From Clostridiaceae bacterium (GTDB lineage Bacteria; Bacillota; Clostridia; DSM-8532), in the NCBI GenBank assembly GCA_012521705.1, contig JAAYLX010000034.1, positions 1 to 61,004 on the forward strand: a stretch of DNA of 61,004 nucleotides, written 5' to 3'. Positions 45,674-54,690 of the stretch are shown here, one piece after another (the stretch's first letter is position 1; each line of letters begins with the position of its first letter). Made by a program: the position numbers and the translations under genes. The notes under the pieces are model-generated. The model made no database searches, was not told where the DNA came from, and was given only the letters and a program-made list of their open reading frames with translations.

Positions 45674-46489
45674 CTATTTTGCTATAACCGAATAAGTTCC
45701 CGGCCCTAAGCCATAGAACAAATACACACCATTTTCATTTGTGTGTGTAAACTGAATGGGGATATTGTTTGAATTTAAAAGTACAACCAGTGCTTTGTCA
45801 ACCGGAAGTCCGTTTTCATCGGTGATTGTTCCATGAATGGTCCCTTTAAGGCTCTTTCTTCTCAAATATATGGTCTCGAGGGTGACAATCGGTTGATCCT
45901 GCCCAATTTCCATGTTGACTATTTTTTCAGCATAGCAATGCGACTGGAATAATATCCTGTATAATCCCGGTTCAATATTATCGAACAAATACAGTCCTTC
46001 TTCATTTGAGTATGTAAAATCATAGGGGTTTTGACTGTGGCTTTTGAACAATGTGATTCTGATTCCTTTGATAGGTTTTTGCTGCGCGTCTTTTACGTTA
46101 CCATAAAAAACTATGCCGCTGTTGGGTGCGGGCATTAATTCTATATTGATGGCTTTCTTTTCAAGGTTTGCAGAAGGCAAAGCCTCGCTGGCAAATGTGT
46201 CATACCCTTTTTTCGCCGCTATAACCCTGATATTTGGGCTGAAACTTCCCTGTAAAGTAAAATTACCGTCCACATCGGTAAAATTATATACAATTGGCTG
46301 GTATTCATTGTCGCATATTTCCACACAAGCACCTTCAATGGGCTTGCCGGTCAGCTTATCGCTGATATTACCCATAATGGTATTTTCATCATAGGTCATC
46401 TGGCTAAGCTCGATACTCTGTATTCGCTGTTCATTTTCTTCAGCAATAGTGACCTTTTGAGGTGGAGTTGGAACGATTAGTTTACTCAC
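45674..46489 (-). CDS. Carboxypeptidase-regulatory-like repeat protein (minus strand)
   Basis: 271 residues from GTG at 46489, chosen because AGGAGG stands six bases upstream; that AGGAGG itself would be codons in a longer ATG frame. Three beta-sandwich repeats, each with the pattern G-x-V/I-x-D...GKPIEGACVEI...DVDGNF, QKPIKGIRITL...EEGLYLFDNIEPGLY, GLPVDKALVVL...ENGVYLFYGLGPGTY. There is no signal peptide or anchor. It is divergent from a gene for a similar protein. I do not know its role; similar repeats occur in surface and spore proteins. Confidence 0.85.
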   Translation of the reverse strand: MSKLIVPTPPQKVTIAEENEQRIQSIELSQMTYDENTIMGNISDKLTGKPIEGACVEICDNEYQPIVYNFTDVDGNFTLQGSFSPNIRVIAAKKGYDTFASEALPSANLEKKAINIELMPAPNSGIVFYGNVKDAQQKPIKGIRITLFKSHSQNPYDFTYSNEEGLYLFDNIEPGLYRILFQSHCYAEKIVNMEIGQDQPIVTLETIYLRRKSLKGTIHGTITDENGLPVDKALVVLLNSNNIPIQFTHTNENGVYLFYGLGPGTYSVIAK

Positions 46490-46628
46490 GCTTATCCTCC
46501 TCATATTCCATTGCTAAAACAGTATATGAGTTAACTTCAAATATTGTGAAAAAACAAAAAAATTATCACGAAAATCATGTTAACATCATATACTGATACA
46601 TCCGGATTTTTATATTGGGGGCTCAATC

Positions 46629-47498
46629 ATGTACAATTTCAAGGAAGAGTATATGCTGGGGCAATCCGAAACAAAAAGTATTCAGAAAGTTGCCGAGGCA
46701 ATTCGGCTTGACCTTACACTTCTGCCCAGTCCGTTTGTTGATTCAGGAACATTAAAGGGAAAGGTCAGAGATCATAACGGAAATCCCATTCCCGATGCGG
46801 TAGTATTAATTCTGGACGAAAGCAATTCGACCCTTGCCAATACTGTGACCGGAAACGACGGATCTTATCTTTTCAATACTCTGAAACCAGGGTCAGGATA
46901 CCAGGCATATGCAAAGGCTCCCGGATTTGAGTTGTCGGAAAAGCTGAGCTTTATCATTAACCCCAACGACTCCATAGAATACGACTTTCTGCTTGTTCCC
47001 GACTCAAGTCAGCAATATTCCGTTGTTGTAGGTGTAATCCAGAACAATGAGGACTTTCCTGTCAATACTGCTTCTGTTGAGCTGTTCCGTGCGGAAGATT
47101 CAAGGACAGTTCCCGTTTCCCTTACCTTTACAAATGAAATTGGTCAATTTGTTTTCAGTAACCTAAATATTGGGTCCTATGTTGTTAAAGTCAATGCAAA
47201 CGGATATTTCAGCGAACATTATCCTGTTATAATATCAAGTATGAATAAGATTATCCCGGTAAATATCAGGCTCCGGGAAGATATGAAAGCTTCAAAAGGT
47301 ATTATTGCAGGAGTAATAACAAATAATGAGGAACAACCTTTAGCCGATGCGGATGTGATACTTTACAGGCTTAATGAGGACGGCTCCCAGTCTCCTGTCG
47401 ATTTTACTCGAAGTAATAAAGAAGGCGTCTACCTGTTCGTAAATGTTCCCCACGGCCAATATTGTGTAAATTCAAATCGTTATATAACAGTAAAATAA
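46629..47498 (+). CDS. Carboxypeptidase-regulatory-like repeat protein (plus strand)
   Basis: 289 residues. Three beta-sandwich repeats like its divergent neighbour: GNPIPDAVVLIL...NDGSYLFNTLKPG, FPVNTASVELF...EIGQFVFSNLNIGSY, QPLADADVILY...KEGVYLFVNVPHGQY. N-terminal 45 residues are non-repeat (KEEYMLGQSETKSIQKVAEA). No signal peptide. GGGGG precedes the ATG. The last repeat ends shortly after its G-Y loop, so the final strand is cut short compared with the others. The two genes form a divergent paralogous pair. Confidence 0.85.
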   Translation: MYNFKEEYMLGQSETKSIQKVAEAIRLDLTLLPSPFVDSGTLKGKVRDHNGNPIPDAVVLILDESNSTLANTVTGNDGSYLFNTLKPGSGYQAYAKAPGFELSEKLSFIINPNDSIEYDFLLVPDSSQQYSVVVGVIQNNEDFPVNTASVELFRAEDSRTVPVSLTFTNEIGQFVFSNLNIGSYVVKVNANGYFSEHYPVIISSMNKIIPVNIRLREDMKASKGIIAGVITNNEEQPLADADVILYRLNEDGSQSPVDFTRSNKEGVYLFVNVPHGQYCVNSNRYITVK

Positions 47499-47519
47499 CT
47501 CTTTCACTTCCGAAATATT

Positions 47520-47544
47520 ATTACAATTATGAAATAATTGTAAT
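47520..47544. promoter_or_regulatory. 25-base inverted repeat upstream of the electron transfer cluster
   Basis: ATTACAATTA and TAATTGTAAT: perfect 10-base arms around TGAAA, 20 bases upstream of the eetA -35 box. No T run follows, so a regulator site fits better than a terminator. It resembles but does not match Fur/PerR-type boxes. Confidence 0.55.
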
Positions 47545-47563
47545 TAATGGATATCAAAAACGT

Positions 47564-47592
47564 TTGCAATCCTTCCAAACAACATGTATAAT
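47564..47592 (+). promoter_or_regulatory. Promoter of the electron transfer cluster
   Basis: TTGCAA (47564-47569), 17-base spacer, TATAAT (47587-47592). Transcription would start near 47599, 38 bases before the chosen eetA start. Confidence 0.7.
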
Positions 47593-47636
47593 GTTAAAGG
47601 AATTTTTTGTTTCGGTTAGATTCGGAAGGGGTAATC

Positions 47637-48017
47637 TTGCGACTGAAGTTTAAGATTGGCGATATATTCATAGTAATATTGATTCTGTTGACTGCGGTAT
47701 TGACTTCAGTTAAATCTCTTCAAGGGAATTATTCGACAAAAATCGCAGTGATTTCGCAAAACAACACTGTACTCCAACGAATCTCCCTGAACGATCATTC
47801 AAGCGAGAGTTTATACATTGATTACGGCGGAAAATATCCGGGTACTATAGAGGTTAATGGTGGAAAAGTTCGCTTTCACCAAGCGGAATGCCCCGATCAG
47901 GTTTGTGTGGAAACAGGCTGGATCAGCAAGCCGGGACAGATAGCAGTTTGCCTCCCGGCAGGAGTAATTATAAAAATAGAAGGCGAGAACGATGAATTTG
48001 ATTTAATGGTTAAATAG
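47637..48017 (+). CDS. eetA: EetA-like NusG domain II protein
   Basis: 126 residues from TTG at 47637, which has GGAAGGGG five bases upstream; a TTG at 47607 would leave almost no leader. One N-terminal membrane helix (IGDIFIVILILLTAVLTSV), then an external NusG-II fold with IAVISQNNTVLQRI, YPGTIEVNGGKVRF and the cysteine motif QAECPDQVCVETGWI. Proteins of this type next to Gx-transporter genes are EetA in the Listeria extracellular electron transfer locus. It probably supports assembly or flavin/quinone handling at the membrane; the exact role is not known. Confidence 0.85.
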   Translation: MRLKFKIGDIFIVILILLTAVLTSVKSLQGNYSTKIAVISQNNTVLQRISLNDHSSESLYIDYGGKYPGTIEVNGGKVRFHQAECPDQVCVETGWISKPGQIAVCLPAGVIIKIEGENDEFDLMVK

Positions 48018-48274
48018 TATATGGTCATATAGTATGAAAATGTTAATATTTGACATCTGAGGACCTTGTCAATATAATTATTTGGTTTGTTTTTTTTTTG
48101 CTTTATATAGATTCCATTCTGTCATACCCTTAATAGTTAATTCATTAACAATGTATCAGAACACCACAGAGTTAATACTTCCCTTCATTTCTAACTTAAC
48201 ATTGAGTATTGTTTCGGGTGTTGTTTCTGAATCTCAAATTGAAAAATTTATAATACTATTTTTATGGTGATTTA

Positions 48275-48790
48275 ATGAAAAAAATTGCACTGAACGGTCT
48301 TTTAATTTCGTTGGCGCTCGTGCTCTCATTTGTGGAGCGCTTTATACCGTTAAATTTAATAGTTCCTCTGCCTGGAGTAAAGCTTGGATTGGCTAACATT
48401 GTTTCCATGTTCGCACTCTTTTACCTGGGTATTTCATCCACTCTGTCGATTATTGTGATAAGGTGTACATTAGGTTCTCTGATGTTCGGTGGAATGACAT
48501 CCTTCCTTTACTCATTGGCCGGTGCGCTTTTCTCATTAATAGCCATGTCGTTGCTAAAGTCAGGATATGACAGAGTTTTTTCCATAGCTGGTATCAGCAT
48601 GGGTGGGGCTGCTGCCCACAACACAGGGCAACTGGTTATGGCAAGCATCATAATGAAAGATGCGGCAATATTCGCCTATTTGCCCGTACTGTTAATAACA
48701 GGACTGATAACCGGTTTGTTTATCGCTTTTGTATCGGTGTATCTTTTTGCAATTTTCGAAAAAACTAAAATAGTTACTTTTATTAAATAA
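48275..48790 (+). CDS. eetB: EetB-like Gx transporter family protein
   Basis: 171 residues, about five membrane helices. Often annotated as heptaprenyl diphosphate synthase component I: ALVLSFVERFIPLNLIVPLPGVKLGLANIVSMFALFY, CTLGSLMFGGMTSFLYSLAGAL, GGAAAHNTGQLVMA. In Listeria this protein is EetB, needed for extracellular electron transfer. The gap to eetA (about 260 bases) has only short frames without ribosome sites. ATG is preceded by weak GGTGAT. Confidence 0.88.
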   Translation: MKKIALNGLLISLALVLSFVERFIPLNLIVPLPGVKLGLANIVSMFALFYLGISSTLSIIVIRCTLGSLMFGGMTSFLYSLAGALFSLIAMSLLKSGYDRVFSIAGISMGGAAAHNTGQLVMASIIMKDAAIFAYLPVLLITGLITGLFIAFVSVYLFAIFEKTKIVTFIK

Positions 48791-48847
48791 TTTTATATAA
48801 AAAATTAATAGCTCGGGTGTAAATACATATCGAAAGGAGAACTTAAA

Positions 48848-50767
48848 ATGGCAAAAAAAGTTCTTATTATTGGGGCCGGCTATGCAGGAATTGAAGCTGC
48901 ATTGACCTTAAATAAGAAGAAAAAGAAAGACGACCTTGAAATAACTTTGGTCGACAAAAACCAATATCACACTTTACTTACCGAACTTCACGAAGTTGCT
49001 GGTAACAGAATTTCTGAAGAAGGTATTCGTATTGATTTAAGAAGCATCTTTAAATACACAGATGTTAATCTCGTAATGGACGAGATAACTACTTTCGATC
49101 TCAAGAACAATAAAGTTGCTTCAGAGAAGAAAGTATATGAGTATGATTATCTCGTACTTGCCATGGGAAGCTCACCAAATGACTTTGGTATCCCTGGCCT
49201 TAAAGAGAATGCTTTCACACTGTGGAGCTTCGACGATGCTGTAAAAATTCGTGAACATATCAAGAAATGCTTTACTCTTGCAAGTCAGGAAAAAGACAAA
49301 GATGAAAGAAAGCGCCTTCTGACATTTGTCGTTTCAGGTGCCGGATTTACCGGTGTTGAGATGATCGGCGAACTTGCCATCTGGTCAAAATCCCTGTGCA
49401 AGGAATATGGAATTGACCGCAAAGAAGTACGTCTTGTAATAGTAGACATGCTTCCAAGAATCCTTAATACCCTGAATGAGAAGAACTCTGCAAAAGCTCA
49501 CAGATATCTTGAAAAGAAACTTAATGTTGAAGTAATGCTTAACACCCGTGTTACCGAAGTAACCGACAAGAGTCTGGTAGTTGACAGAGGAGAGATTCCT
49601 ACACGTACAGTCATCTGGGCAGCGGGAATCAAAGCTGCTGACAGCGCAGATAAAATTGATGTTGAAAGAGCAACCCGTGCCGGTAGAATCAAGGTTGATG
49701 AATACTGCAGATCTCTTGAACATGACAACGTATATGTAATAGGTGACCTTTCAGGTTTATCCGACGAACAGGGTCGCCCCTACGCTGCAATGGTTGAAAA
49801 CGCAATTCAGACCGGTCACGGAGCTGCAATGAATATTCTCAGCCATTCACGCGGCAAAGAGCAAAAGAAAGTCGAAGTTAAATTCCATGGTACCATGGTC
49901 AGCGTTGGAAACTACTTCTGCGTATCTGAAATCATGGGTAAAAACCTTCCCGTATGGCTCTCCATAGTAATGAAGTTCCTTGTAAACATCCATTATTTAT
50001 GGGAAATCACCGGTTTCAGAGGTATTTCAAGATACCTGTACCATGAAGTTCTGGAACGCAGACAAAGAAAAATTTTCCTCGAAAAACATTGGTCAACCAG
50101 GATGCAGGCATGGTGGCTCACTCCGCTTAGACTATTCCTTGGTGGTATGTGGCTCTATGAGGGTATTGTAAAAGTTACCGAGGGCTGGCTGTCCTCCCCT
50201 AAACTGGCATCATTCCTTGGAATGGCTTCTGATGCTACCAGTGCTGCATCAGGTGCTGCGTCATATATTACAAGAATAGATGAAGTATTACCGATAAAAA
50301 CAGGTATAATCAATTTCCTGCTCGGAACTGAATCCAGACTTGTTGAAGGTGCCACAATAAGTGCTCAGAACTTCATCAAAGTGGATCTCTTTAACTTTGG
50401 CGATTTCAACCTGGTTCCCTGGTTCCTGCAAAATGTTGTTCTTGCTAACGACGGAATTGCAATGTTCTTCCAGGTGCTGGTTGTCATCCTTGAAGTAGCA
50501 GTAGGTCTTATGCTCTTGGGTGGTGCATTTACCTTTATCGGTTCTGTAATTTCATTTGGATTATTAACTATGTTCTTAACCTCAACCGGTTTATACGAAG
50601 AGAGCTGGTGGATGATTCTTGCCTCCATTGCTACCATGGGTGGAGCAGGTCGAGCATTTGGTCTTGACTACTACCTCATCCCCTACCTCAACAATGTTTG
50701 GGAGAGCTATTGGAAGAACAGAAAGTTCAGACTCTTCTTCAAGCGTAGTCTTGACCGGTTCGAGTAA
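48848..50767 (+). CDS. ndh2: Type II NADH dehydrogenase with C-terminal membrane domain (Ndh2)
   Basis: 639 residues. N-terminal flavoprotein (1-390) with FAD site VLIIGAGYAGIEAAL, NAD site VVSGAGFTGVEMIGEL and VYVIGDLSGL. Residues 430-639 are a DoxX-like membrane part with RLFLGGMWLYEGIVKV, LEVAVGLMLLGG and GGAGRAFGLDYYLIPYL. Classical NDH-2 enzymes have about 400 residues; the added membrane domain is a feature of Ndh2 in the Listeria electron transfer locus, which passes electrons from NADH to demethylmenaquinone. AAAGGAG precedes the ATG. Confidence 0.94.
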   Translation: MAKKVLIIGAGYAGIEAALTLNKKKKKDDLEITLVDKNQYHTLLTELHEVAGNRISEEGIRIDLRSIFKYTDVNLVMDEITTFDLKNNKVASEKKVYEYDYLVLAMGSSPNDFGIPGLKENAFTLWSFDDAVKIREHIKKCFTLASQEKDKDERKRLLTFVVSGAGFTGVEMIGELAIWSKSLCKEYGIDRKEVRLVIVDMLPRILNTLNEKNSAKAHRYLEKKLNVEVMLNTRVTEVTDKSLVVDRGEIPTRTVIWAAGIKAADSADKIDVERATRAGRIKVDEYCRSLEHDNVYVIGDLSGLSDEQGRPYAAMVENAIQTGHGAAMNILSHSRGKEQKKVEVKFHGTMVSVGNYFCVSEIMGKNLPVWLSIVMKFLVNIHYLWEITGFRGISRYLYHEVLERRQRKIFLEKHWSTRMQAWWLTPLRLFLGGMWLYEGIVKVTEGWLSSPKLASFLGMASDATSAASGAASYITRIDEVLPIKTGIINFLLGTESRLVEGATISAQNFIKVDLFNFGDFNLVPWFLQNVVLANDGIAMFFQVLVVILEVAVGLMLLGGAFTFIGSVISFGLLTMFLTSTGLYEESWWMILASIATMGGAGRAFGLDYYLIPYLNNVWESYWKNRKFRLFFKRSLDRFE

Positions 50768-50808
50768 TTTGCTCCAAGGAGCTGTTATACCATAGGAGGT
50801 AGAATACG

Positions 50809-51747
50809 TTGTGGGAAAACTTCCCTCTTATTAAACAAGAGTTGGAAGCTTTTGAAGAATATTTAAAATCAAAACTTTCATCTCGTATAGATTTTTTGGA
50901 AAACGCTTCGAAAGAAGTAGTGCTCTCGGGAGGAAAAAGACTCAGACCTGCTTTTACAATTATAGCCGCACTCCATGGTGACTATAATCGCGAACGGGTA
51001 TTCCCGGCAGCTGCCTCAGTTGAATTACTGCACACTGCAACACTTATACATGATGACATCATTGACAATGCAAAAACCAGAAGAGGTACTTTAACAATTT
51101 CAGAAAAACATAGTATCAATCTTGCAGTGTATACCGGAGATTATCTTCTTACCAAATCATTGAGGCTGCTTATGGAAACCGGGCTTAAGCCTGAAAAAAT
51201 GGACATTCTTGCCCGGTCCATCTCCATTCTCTGTGAGAGCGAAATAGATCAATATATAGGAAAATATCAAATTGCAACCCTGGGTAAATACCTTAAGCGC
51301 ATTATCGGTAAGACCGGCGTTCTGTTCTCTGCCTCCCTCATGCTGGGGGCAAAGACTGCAAATCTGTCCGATGATGTAGCAAGAGTATTTGGAAGGTTCG
51401 GCAACAGTTTTGGAGCCGCCTTTCAGATCAGGGACGATTTGCTGGACCTCTTTTCCAATCAGAAAAAAGAAGGCAAGCCGGTACTTAACGATCTAAAAGA
51501 AGGTATTGTAACCTTGCCTATCATACTGTCGATTCGCAATAACAGCGAATTACAAAAAAAGGTCAGCGAATTCTTCGATGGTGAAGGCGACATTAATGAT
51601 TTAATCAATATGGTCACCGCATCAGGGGGCGTTAAAGACGCCGCAAGAATTAAGAACAGATATATTAACAAGTGTAAAAAATATCTTGAAAATATACCAC
51701 AGACACCATACACTAAAGCTCTGAATGAAATTGTAGACTGGCTCTGA
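50809..51747 (+). CDS. dmkB: Polyprenyl diphosphate synthase (DmkB-type)
   Basis: 312 residues, TTG start with AGGAGGT eight bases upstream. Trans-prenyltransferase with LSGGKRLRPA, first aspartate-rich motif LIHDDIIDNAKTRRG, and second QIRDDLLDLFSN. It elongates farnesyl or geranylgeranyl diphosphate for a quinone side chain. In the Listeria locus the equivalent is DmkB. A UbiA/MenA-type gene (DmkA) is not in the window. It follows ndh2 by 41 bases. Confidence 0.92.
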   Translation: MWENFPLIKQELEAFEEYLKSKLSSRIDFLENASKEVVLSGGKRLRPAFTIIAALHGDYNRERVFPAAASVELLHTATLIHDDIIDNAKTRRGTLTISEKHSINLAVYTGDYLLTKSLRLLMETGLKPEKMDILARSISILCESEIDQYIGKYQIATLGKYLKRIIGKTGVLFSASLMLGAKTANLSDDVARVFGRFGNSFGAAFQIRDDLLDLFSNQKKEGKPVLNDLKEGIVTLPIILSIRNNSELQKKVSEFFDGEGDINDLINMVTASGGVKDAARIKNRYINKCKKYLENIPQTPYTKALNEIVDWL

Positions 51748-51804
51748 CAGTTTGCAATGAAATTCTTAGCATATATAAACTAAATTTTTTAGGAGGGGTT
51801 ATTT

Positions 51805-52338
51805 ATGAAGAAGATCATAGCACTCACATTGATTGCAGTTCTCTTGGCAGGCTGCGGTGCTACAACTTCAGTAAAAACCGGACTTGGCCATGACATTTCT
51901 ATCGCCAAGTCAAAAGACGCAACAGCTGAGGCCGAAGGTCTCGCACAGGTAGACACAGTAATGGCTGCTGTTACCTTTGACAAAGCTGGAAAAATCTTAG
52001 GTGTCACCATTGACAATGCTCAGGTTAAAGTTAACTTTGATCAGAATGGTAAAGTTACCTCTGACTTAACTGAAAAACCTGAAACCAAAGTTGAACTTGG
52101 TGACAAATATGGCATGAAGAAGGCTTCCGGAATCGGAAGAGAATGGTATGAGCAGATTGCCGAGCTCGAAAAATGGATGACCGGTAAGACTGTTGACCAG
52201 ATCAATGCCATGAAGACCGTGCAGAAGGATGAAAGCCATCCTGCAGTTCCCGACGAAGCAGACCTGAAATCAAAGGTAACTGTTTCTGTTGAATCTTACC
52301 TGGCAGCTGTTACTGAAGCATATAAGAATGCAAAATAA
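51805..52338 (+). CDS. Small lipoprotein, diverged FMN-binding-like (PplA role)
   Basis: 177 residues. Signal peptide with lipobox LLAGC (MKKIIALTLIAVLLAGC), so it is a surface lipoprotein. Two repeats of a beta-rich pattern, with GKILGVTIDNAQVKVNF and the end DEADLKSKVTVSVESYLAAV. The last segment aligns with the flavin-attachment pattern D-x-x-S-G-A-T-x-T/S but reads D-L-K-S-K-V-T-V-S, so the acceptor serine and T are kept while G and A are replaced. This is a possible carrier of covalent FMN added by ApbE, encoded next. Strong AGGAGGGG precedes the ATG. Confidence 0.72.
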   Translation: MKKIIALTLIAVLLAGCGATTSVKTGLGHDISIAKSKDATAEAEGLAQVDTVMAAVTFDKAGKILGVTIDNAQVKVNFDQNGKVTSDLTEKPETKVELGDKYGMKKASGIGREWYEQIAELEKWMTGKTVDQINAMKTVQKDESHPAVPDEADLKSKVTVSVESYLAAVTEAYKNAK

Positions 52339-52360
52339 TTGTGCTTACATAGCACTGCCA

Positions 52361-52393
52361 AAAGAACCCCTTCTTGACTGAAGGGGTTCTTTT
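52361..52393 (+). terminator. Terminator between lipoprotein gene and apbE
   Basis: AAAGAACCCCTTC and GAAGGGGTTCTTT, a perfect 13-base stem around TTGACT, ending in TTT. apbE therefore needs read-through or its own promoter. Confidence 0.85.
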
Positions 52394-52487
52394 AAATGTT
52401 CAATAATGTTAATATATATTTGTTAGTTGCAAAATAATATCATCTGTTACAACTTTGAAGAAGAATAACTGAAACGAGGCTTACCGG

Positions 52488-53561
52488 ATGAAACCAAAAT
52501 ACTTATTACTCTTACTTATATTTTGTCTGGCTATATCGATAACTGGCTGCAAAGAACAGTACAGCAGATACACCTATGAATTTATAGGTGCATTTGATAC
52601 AACTATTCAAATTGTAGGATATGCAAAGAACCAGAAGGAATTTGAAACCATGGGCGACTACGCTCAGCAAAGATTTATGGAACTTCATAAACTATATGAT
52701 ATATACAATGATTACGAAGGAATAAACAATATAAAGACAATAAATGATAACGCCGGTATCAAGCCGGTTAAAGTTGAGAAAGCAATTATTGATTTAATTT
52801 TAAAATCCAAGGAATGGTATTCTGAAACAAATGGAAAATGCAATATTGCGTTGGGGCCCATGCTGAATATTTGGCACGAGTACCGTGATGCCGGAAAAAA
52901 TGATCCGGAAAATGCGGCTCTCCCCCCTATGTCCGAACTTGAAAATGCAATGCAATATACTGATATAAACAAGGTAATAATTGACGAGGAAAACAGTACA
53001 ATTTTTCTTGAGGAAAAAAATATGCGCCTTGACGTAGGTGCGATTGCTAAAGGTTTTGCTACAGAGCTGATTGTAGCCGAATTGGTTGAAAAAGGATATG
53101 ACAATTTCGCAATCAGCTCAGGTGGTAATGTAAAAGCCGTAGGACGGCCTTTGGTCCAAGGCAGAAACTATTGGGGTATTGGTATACAGGACCCTGACGG
53201 GGATGTCAATGACCCTGATGAGCCTTCACTGGATATTATATATGTAAGCAATAAGTCCGTAGTAACCAGCGGCGATTATCAACGCACTTATATCGTGGAT
53301 GGAAAAGAGTATCACCACCTTATTGACCCGGCGACTCTTATGCCCGCCAAATACTTTCGTTCTGTAGTGGTTGTTGTGGAAGATTCAGGCTTTGCCGATT
53401 TCATGTCCACTACTTTATTCCTGACTCCTTTTGAGGAGGGCAAAGAACTTGCTGAAAAATTGGGCATTGATGCTGTCTGGGTATTCAGTGACGGAACACT
53501 TAAAGCAACTCCGGGTGCACAGCAGAGAATGAAAAATTTAGGCGGAGCAACCGGAAATTAA
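52488..53561 (+). CDS. apbE: FAD:protein FMN transferase ApbE (lipoprotein)
   Basis: 357 residues. Signal peptide with lipobox ITGC. It moves FMN from FAD onto serine or threonine of target proteins outside the membrane. Family motifs: YTYEFIGAFDTTIQIVGY, RLDVGAIAKGFATELI, AISSGGNVKAVG, VSNKSVVTSGDYQRTYIVDGKEYHHLIDP. In the Listeria electron transfer locus the equivalent is FmnB, which flavinylates PplA. Here the nearest target is the lipoprotein directly upstream. Confidence 0.95.
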   Translation: MKPKYLLLLLIFCLAISITGCKEQYSRYTYEFIGAFDTTIQIVGYAKNQKEFETMGDYAQQRFMELHKLYDIYNDYEGINNIKTINDNAGIKPVKVEKAIIDLILKSKEWYSETNGKCNIALGPMLNIWHEYRDAGKNDPENAALPPMSELENAMQYTDINKVIIDEENSTIFLEEKNMRLDVGAIAKGFATELIVAELVEKGYDNFAISSGGNVKAVGRPLVQGRNYWGIGIQDPDGDVNDPDEPSLDIIYVSNKSVVTSGDYQRTYIVDGKEYHHLIDPATLMPAKYFRSVVVVVEDSGFADFMSTTLFLTPFEEGKELAEKLGIDAVWVFSDGTLKATPGAQQRMKNLGGATGN

Positions 53562-53587
53562 TTCTTAGCGTTAGGTGGGTGGCTAAT

Positions 53588-53929
53588 ATGAATGCAAAAG
53601 AAATTAAGTTTGATAAAGGCTGGAAATATCTTGTTTATTTTGATATCGTACTTCCGGGCATTGTGTTTTTGCTTGCCTTGCTCACTAAATCTCCCTTTTT
53701 ATCTAAACTTTTTCACTCATATGAAACTTTTGTTGTAAGTCCTATTCCAAATTTTGTAACTCTAACCGGAATAATCGGTTTGGTTTATCATCTGGGAATA
53801 ATCATATACACTATTATAAAGAAGAATTACAGGGATCTTATGATTTGCCTGAGTATAACTATATTAGTTGCCCTGTTCTTCTACTTCGAATTGAACTATC
53901 AGATTATTAAACCGCTTGTATTTTATTAA
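53588..53929 (+). CDS. Small three-helix membrane protein of unknown function
   Basis: 113 residues from ATG at 53588, with GGTGG ahead of it; a GTG three codons earlier is too close to its ribosome site. Three hydrophobic segments (VYFDIVLPGIVFLLALLTK, FVTLTGIIGLVYHLGIIIY, LMICLSITILVALFFYFEL). No motif. 26 bases after apbE, so probably in the same unit. It could serve as a membrane partner in electron transfer, but this rests only on position. Confidence 0.75.
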   Translation: MNAKEIKFDKGWKYLVYFDIVLPGIVFLLALLTKSPFLSKLFHSYETFVVSPIPNFVTLTGIIGLVYHLGIIIYTIIKKNYRDLMICLSITILVALFFYFELNYQIIKPLVFY

Positions 53930-53952
53930 TACTTGTTGCAGGAGGCATGAAA

Positions 53953-54690
53953 ATGCGCAGGGTTAATGTCTGGTACCTATACCATAGCGGTTTTGCCGTA
54001 GAAACAGAGGACTCAGTATTAATATTTGATTACTTCAAGAATGAATGTACCGGGAATCCTTGCCTGGCAAATGGAGTAATTAATCCGGAAGAACTGAAGG
54101 ATAAAAAGCATGTTTATGTTTTTGCATCCCACCGCCATCCGGACCACTTCAACCCTGTCGTTCTATCCTGGAAAGAAATCCTTCCCCAGGCTGAGTATTT
54201 TCTGTCCTATGACATACCAAAACAATACCATAAAAACGGCATTAATATAATAAGTCCAAATGAAACTTACCAAACCGGAAATATTGTGGTAAGAAGCTTT
54301 AAATCCACGGACGAAGGTGTTGCTTTCCTCCTTGACTTTAACGGGCTTTCAATTTACCACGCCGGGGATCTGAACTGGTGGCACTGGTTTGGAGAACCGG
54401 ACGACTGGAACAAAAACATGGAACACATGTATAAAAAGGAAATATCACTTATTAAGGATTATCCAATAGATATTGCCTTCCTTACGGCAGACCCGCGTCA
54501 GGAAGACGCAGAGCTTTGGGGAATAACCTACTTTTTGGAGAATGTGGATGTCAAGGTTGCCTTTCCTATGCATTTCTGGGACGATTACAGCATAATGCCC
54601 AGAATCAAAGATGCCGCCAAAGACAATCCGGTATTGTATAAAGTAATTACAATTGATTCAAGGGGACAGCACTTCAGTTTCCCATATTGA
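53953..54690 (+). CDS. Metallo-beta-lactamase fold hydrolase
   Basis: 245 residues from ATG at 53953, with AGGAGG eight bases upstream; an ATG two codons earlier is too close. Zinc motif ASHRHPDHFNP (HxHxDH) near residue 60, GLSIYHAGDLNWWHWFGEP, and AFPMHFWDDY (final histidine). It is UlaG-like but the substrate is unknown. No signal peptide, so cytosolic. Overlapping operon context with the apbE unit, 23 bases after the small membrane protein. Confidence 0.85.
   Translation: MRRVNVWYLYHSGFAVETEDSVLIFDYFKNECTGNPCLANGVINPEELKDKKHVYVFASHRHPDHFNPVVLSWKEILPQAEYFLSYDIPKQYHKNGINIISPNETYQTGNIVVRSFKSTDEGVAFLLDFNGLSIYHAGDLNWWHWFGEPDDWNKNMEHMYKKEISLIKDYPIDIAFLTADPRQEDAELWGITYFLENVDVKVAFPMHFWDDYSIMPRIKDAAKDNPVLYKVITIDSRGQHFSFPY

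Follow-up and report, generated by a model that had tools for sequence, protein, structure and literature searches.

Can a locus for flavin-based extracellular electron transfer (FLEET) work through a covalently flavinylated lipoprotein that lacks the classical attachment motif for flavin mononucleotide (FMN)? This question is raised by a 61,004-nt stretch of a Clostridiaceae genome (contig JAAYLX010000034.1; hereafter, the window), whose 47.6–54.7 kb part carries eight genes on the + strand in the order eetA, eetB, ndh2, dmkB, a lipoprotein gene, apbE, a small membrane protein gene, and a metallo-beta-lactamase (MBL) hydrolase gene (Table 1). We consider it probable that this is a FLEET-type locus in which a far-diverged FMN-bind lipoprotein receives FMN on T159, at an altered site, from an ApbE of a separate class (class B). 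We lean slightly toward a broader proposal, namely that Clostridia use a second flavinylation code, in which TLxP-type ApbE proteins pair with [DE]-L-x-[ST]-x-V-[TS] lipoproteins that replace PplA in electron-export loci and also form a stand-alone two-gene module.

The electron-export locus itself is of a known kind. The original prediction, made from the letters alone, had matched six of the proteins to EetA, EetB, Ndh2, DmkB, PplA, and FmnB of Listeria; all six are present in that order on the + strand, five with family matches and the lipoprotein with a lipoprotein signal, and the set recurs in Clostridia loci. Because the same order recurs in many of these loci, the gene set is not a chance assembly, and the genes present, their order, and their persistence in complete loci that include dmkA lend good support to the electron-export reading. 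EetA found its best PDB match in Lin0431 of Listeria innocua, Ndh2 matched Pyr_redox_2 (E 1.6e-45) and showed homology to solved NDH-2 enzymes across residues 4–391, and the best NCBIfam model for DmkB was HepT-like, under that model's cut-off. The equation of ApbE with FmnB was likewise borne out: Listeria FmnB (7ESA), the one protein of that locus compared directly, was its closest solved relative and best PDB match, and the catalytic Asp, Ser, and His residues are kept. Like the Listeria and Lactiplantibacillus FLEET systems, this genome thus holds Ndh2, EetA, EetB, DmkB, a lipoprotein, ApbE/FmnB, and DmkA, and a probable dependence on outside 1,4-dihydroxy-2-naphthoic acid (DHNA) is shared with L. 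plantarum. Unlike them, however, it has a lipoprotein that is not PplA by sequence and lacks [ST]GA[ST], an unlinked dmkA, an ApbE of the TLxP branch, and extra genes for the small membrane protein and the MBL hydrolase. In the literature searched, we found neither a report of a variant attachment motif nor one of a protein in the PplA slot that lacks the classical site and has its own ApbE branch.

Identification of the small lipoprotein as PplA did not stand in the tests applied. Apart from the lipoprotein signal it had no Pfam or NCBIfam match above cut-off, no PF04205 (FMN_bind) match at E 0.001, and no match among the sequences of solved structures, and to the TGAT-bearing PplA-like lipoproteins of related loci it could be aligned only in its signal peptide and, weakly, at the C-terminus. 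Neither the window protein nor its relatives carry [ST]GA[ST] at the site, and the only two such strings among them sit by the signal peptide. The protein belongs to a Clostridia family of at least 505 relatives, including proteins of Geosporobacter ferrireducens, Anaerovirgula, Alkaliphilus, and Clostridium species, and is present in 41 of 391 genomes of the class (22 of 222 genera). Most relatives have two tandem domains, and those of the window's lineage have one. The family resembles PplA, the cAD1 precursor, in being a one- or two-domain lipoprotein in the same slot beside apbE, likely with the same fold, but [DE]LxSxVT replaces [ST]GA[ST].

What the family does conserve is a C-terminal pattern, [ED]-L-x-[ST]-x-V-[TS], which could be scored in 136 of 138 domain copies (E/D 136/136, L 134/136, S/T 132/136, V 135/136, T/S 136/136) and, in proteins with two domains, is as a rule found in each of them. 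Profile alignment to RnfG placed DLKSKVT of the window protein on D/ExxSGAT (P 5e-4), and alignment to small FMN-bind proteins (P 2e-4) kept this register, on D-x-x-[ST]-G-A-[T]; both are weak and short. With the conserved string set on the classical D-x-x-[ST]-G-A-[ST] in this way, T159 is the predicted FMN site. One relative (locus L143) has DLVSKAT, midway between the variant and classical motifs. The AlphaFold model of the lipoprotein (pLDDT, the model's own confidence measure, 90.7) consists of three long strands followed by helices, and the best three of 991 chains aligned to it by VIA-align were FMN-bind domains, 2KZX (Z 8.1), 3O6U (Z 8.0), and SaFMN3 8P2A (Z 6.6). These are covalent-flavin domains, but they share at most 17% identity with the model in structural alignment and the window site is altered. 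We read the lipoprotein as a far-diverged FMN-bind domain in which Gly-Ala has turned into x-Val. The top Foldseek rows, ARC6 and IscU, were not significant, and IscU-type rows, ranked lower by VIA-align at Z 5–6, were set aside.

Genomic linkage connects this family to one branch of ApbE. A same-strand apbE lies near the lipoprotein gene in 72 of 80 loci, the only other common neighbors are electron-export genes (ndh2 in 25/80 loci), and many loci keep the lipoprotein and apbE as a two-gene module with no other electron-export gene. When 17 genomes with the lipoprotein were checked, 14 had two ApbE proteins, of which one scored high (class A) and the other low (class B), and a FastTree phylogeny separated the two classes with a split support of 100. 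The class B clade contained 78 of the 81 lipoprotein-linked ApbE proteins; the other three came from loci with both classes. After the catalytic YHH, class A reads TGxP (G in 42/42) and class B TLxP (L in 74/77), while catalytic residues are common to both. In loci L110, L127, and L138, class A and class B ApbE stand side by side, adjoining a two-domain variant lipoprotein. The statement that ApbE tracks the lipoprotein within the genus was weakened, as the few genomes missing the two proteins either do not have the locus (G003, G005) or carry it at the end of a contig (G011).

The slot replacement is seen in relatives with complete loci. A genome assembled as one contig and rated 100% complete (G056) carries ndh2-dmkB-dmkA-eetA-eetB-lipoprotein-apbE(B), and a genome search detected one ApbE, no FMN_bind protein, and no NqrB/RnfD, so that no ApbE substrate other than the lipoprotein is visible there among the families tested. 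In the same genus, four more genomes have the lipoprotein in this slot, and genome G124 shows the window's gene order with dmkA included. In related genera such loci carry PplA-like lipoproteins with TGAT or SGAT, and their ApbE is TGxP wherever the signature is readable. Another genome without FMN_bind (G099) was not used, as it has two ApbE proteins and an RnfD fragment.

Several observations weigh against covalent flavinylation of the lipoprotein. The profile matches behind the T159 register are short and weak, a comparison with one PplA-like profile (A4) aligned only the signal peptides, Foldseek returned no PDB match to the model at E ≤ 0.001, and a VIA-align Z of about 8 is borderline. 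The association between class B and the lipoprotein may reflect one ancient linkage and not many independent ones, and the check for both FMN_bind and RnfD covered one complete genome, G056. In five genomes of genus g7, which have the Ndh2 extension and an ApbE scoring as class B, profile search found no lipoprotein, and the two g7 loci that were read (L191, L192) are ndh2-dmkB-apbE with the MBL gene beside apbE. Since the lipoprotein is not detected there, class B ApbE must have another use in g7, probably on RnfG. RnfG is also a possible substrate in the window genome, which has one ApbE and one FMN_bind (PF04205) protein, the latter away from the locus, beside an RnfD gene and therefore RnfG, and its SGAT is intact, so that the window ApbE could be kept for RnfG. 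Strict dedication of class B to the lipoprotein was accordingly rejected.

The most serious alternative, which we still regard as unlikely, follows from these points: the locus would export electrons, but the lipoprotein would act as a non-covalent flavin or quinone binder or as a structural component, with ApbE retained for RnfG. Absence of [ST]GA[ST] is in line with this, as flavinylation of a canonical substrate falls to ~50% upon G-to-A and A-to-V changes and is abolished by T-to-A (PMC12052999), and so are the intact RnfG motif, the g7 genomes, and a near-complete genome without any ApbE (G003; L193:3363-3989) in which the RnfG motif has decayed to ASAT. Given g7, the intact SGAT of the window, and this ASAT, class B probably serves RnfG too; by its sequence, the ApbE-less genome may run Rnf without covalent FMN on RnfG. 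Retention for RnfG does not, however, account for G056, which has an ApbE but neither FMN_bind nor NqrB/RnfD, for the near-invariance of S, V, and T at a spacing as in the classical motif, or for the lipoprotein–apbE pair kept apart from other electron-export genes. RnfG as the main selected substrate is also an odd fit to the RnfG proteins themselves: the motif glycine is lost in 8 of 22 class-B-only genomes versus 0 of 21 with class A (Fisher p 0.003 on a first count of 8/19 versus 0/19), although the eight losses are not independent and represent roughly four changes. These losses (G001, G002, G006, G007, G008, G028, G031, and G055; motifs TAAT, ASAT, TSAT, and SAAT) fit either a relaxed class B specificity or a relaxed need for RnfG flavinylation.

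Under the preferred reading of a covalently flavinylated lipoprotein, with functional roles taken from L. plantarum, where the genes for anode and iron reduction have been defined (PMC9888254), Ndh2 would oxidize NADH and hand electrons to a quinone, presumably demethylmenaquinone made by DmkB and an unlinked UbiA/DmkA from scavenged DHNA. EetA and EetB would aid electron passage across the membrane, and the surface lipoprotein, to which the neighboring ApbE would have attached FMN covalently at T159, could then reduce external acceptors. Here, class B ApbE would accept, or be dedicated to, the variant [DE]-L-x-[ST]-x-V-[TS] in place of the classical D-x-x-[ST]-G-A-[ST]. The analysis shows the gene content, its conservation, the site pattern, the enzyme clade, and the slot replacement; flavinylation of the lipoprotein and the electron path are at this point inferences.

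The quinone branch was followed across the window genome (2.25 Mb, 59 contigs, 99.8% complete). The original prediction had noted no dmkA in view, which is true of the window, but a genome-wide search found one UbiA protein on another contig (C2:64899), between aroQ-like and nfo-like genes. This is likely DmkA, and dmkA is linked to the locus in relatives. MenB and MqnA/D were not found in the window genome by searches that were positive in control genomes, and outside DHNA is therefore probably needed; L. plantarum has the same quinone-gene pattern and imports outside DHNA (PMC10746273). Dependence of the quinone supply on neighbors would also suit a low-flux reductase, for example for Fe(III) reduction in iron uptake or NADH re-oxidation via a soluble shuttle, in place of a respiratory outlet, and flavinylation gene clusters are often tied to iron transporters (PMC8238504). 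We nevertheless judge this very improbable, as no iron-uptake gene was recognized among the locus genes and the gene set corresponds to the one L. plantarum needs to reduce an anode or iron (PMC9888254). Least credible is that the lipoprotein is a standard PplA ortholog and the locus a standard Listeria-type one, which would suit the shared slot beside fmnB and the FMN-bind-like predicted fold but clashes with the missing PF04205 match and [ST]GA[ST], with a survey in which each cAD1/PplA ortholog had one SGAT motif or two (PMC7074142), and with the ordinary TGAT PplA-like proteins that occupy such loci in related genera.

Surveys find ApbE substrates by FMN_bind, DUF2271/DUF3570, or [ST]GA[ST] (PMC8238504), and a family with an altered site would be missed by them. 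DUF2271 and DUF3570 were themselves found via orphan apbE genes and are, like the window family, ApbE-linked, but they keep [S/T]GA[S/T] (PMC8238504). The window family may also be related to FMN-bind2 (~160 aa; PMC11334425), which, compared by description only, has a similar domain length and also even copy numbers. If the second code is real, it would explain some of the apbE genes without a recognized substrate, a situation reported in 4% of surveyed genomes (PMC8238504), would widen the ApbE recognition code, and could supply a new enzyme/tag pair for protein labeling. It would also give Clostridia in which no outlet is known a testable candidate for electron export; the lipoprotein–apbE pair is present in Geosporobacter ferrireducens, whose name refers to iron reduction.

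Table 1 Features of the electron-export locus, in positions of the window.
Feature	Position	Strand	Basis or remark
Promoter-like site before eetA	47563..47592	+	10/12 consensus match only
eetA, NusG domain II membrane protein	47637..48017	+	PF07009 E 2.6e-30; start by Shine-Dalgarno
Perfect sigma-70-type TTGACA-17-TATAAT before eetB	48050..48078	+	12/12 consensus match only
eetB, Gx-transporter / Hpre_diP_synt_I family	48275..48790	+	PF07456 E 4.1e-42
ndh2, type II NADH dehydrogenase with C-terminal membrane domain (~392-639)	48848..50767	+	
dmkB, polyprenyl diphosphate synthase	50809..51747	+	PF00348 E 3.3e-56
Variant lipoprotein in PplA slot, probable FMN-bind fold, without [ST]GA[ST]	51805..52338	+	LPAM_1 signal
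Codons of D153-L-K-S-K-V-T159, predicted variant ApbE attachment site	52261..52281	+	
T159 codon, predicted FMN-bearing residue	52279-52281	+	
12-bp hairpin with T tail, terminator/attenuator, between lipoprotein gene and apbE	52362..52394	+	
apbE/fmnB, class B (TLxP) FAD:protein FMN transferase	52488..53561	+	PF02424 E 1.7e-64
Small membrane protein	53579..53929	+	Follower in 13/80 loci, mostly window's lineage
MBL-fold hydrolase	53947..54690	+	PF13483 E 1.3e-6; follower in 10/80 loci

Among the remaining features, the mechanically called open reading frame of eetA opens at 47607, and the likelier start is TTG 47637, which is preceded by GGAAGGGG. Ndh2 has a C-terminal membrane extension of ~250 residues that is conserved in 26 rows, so that the added membrane domain of the original prediction stands; its description as DoxX-like is unproven, since the family search gave only sub-threshold MauE/DoxD matches and the AlphaFold2 model of this domain, a helical bundle with a beta insertion, reached a pLDDT of only 65. 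VIA-align matched it to tetraspanin, VKOR, and claudin bundles with Z no higher than 7.5, and no fold is claimed. The two genes after apbE, which had been put forward as possible extra parts, were confirmed as conserved followers, mainly in the window's lineage; the small membrane protein had no Pfam or NCBIfam family match, and the MBL gene adjoins apbE in the g7 loci as well.

The hairpin between the lipoprotein gene and apbE (-20.1 kcal/mol, z -5.4) has comparable counterparts in 21 of 71 relatives by a strict scan, and may hold ApbE expression below that of its lipoprotein substrate; no Rfam element was found within the locus. Upstream, the locus is flanked by two divergent proteins, encoded at 45674-46504 (-) and 46629-47498 (+), each with three carboxypeptidase-regulatory-like beta-sandwich repeats, and several relatives (6 loci) have a similar protein ahead of the locus.

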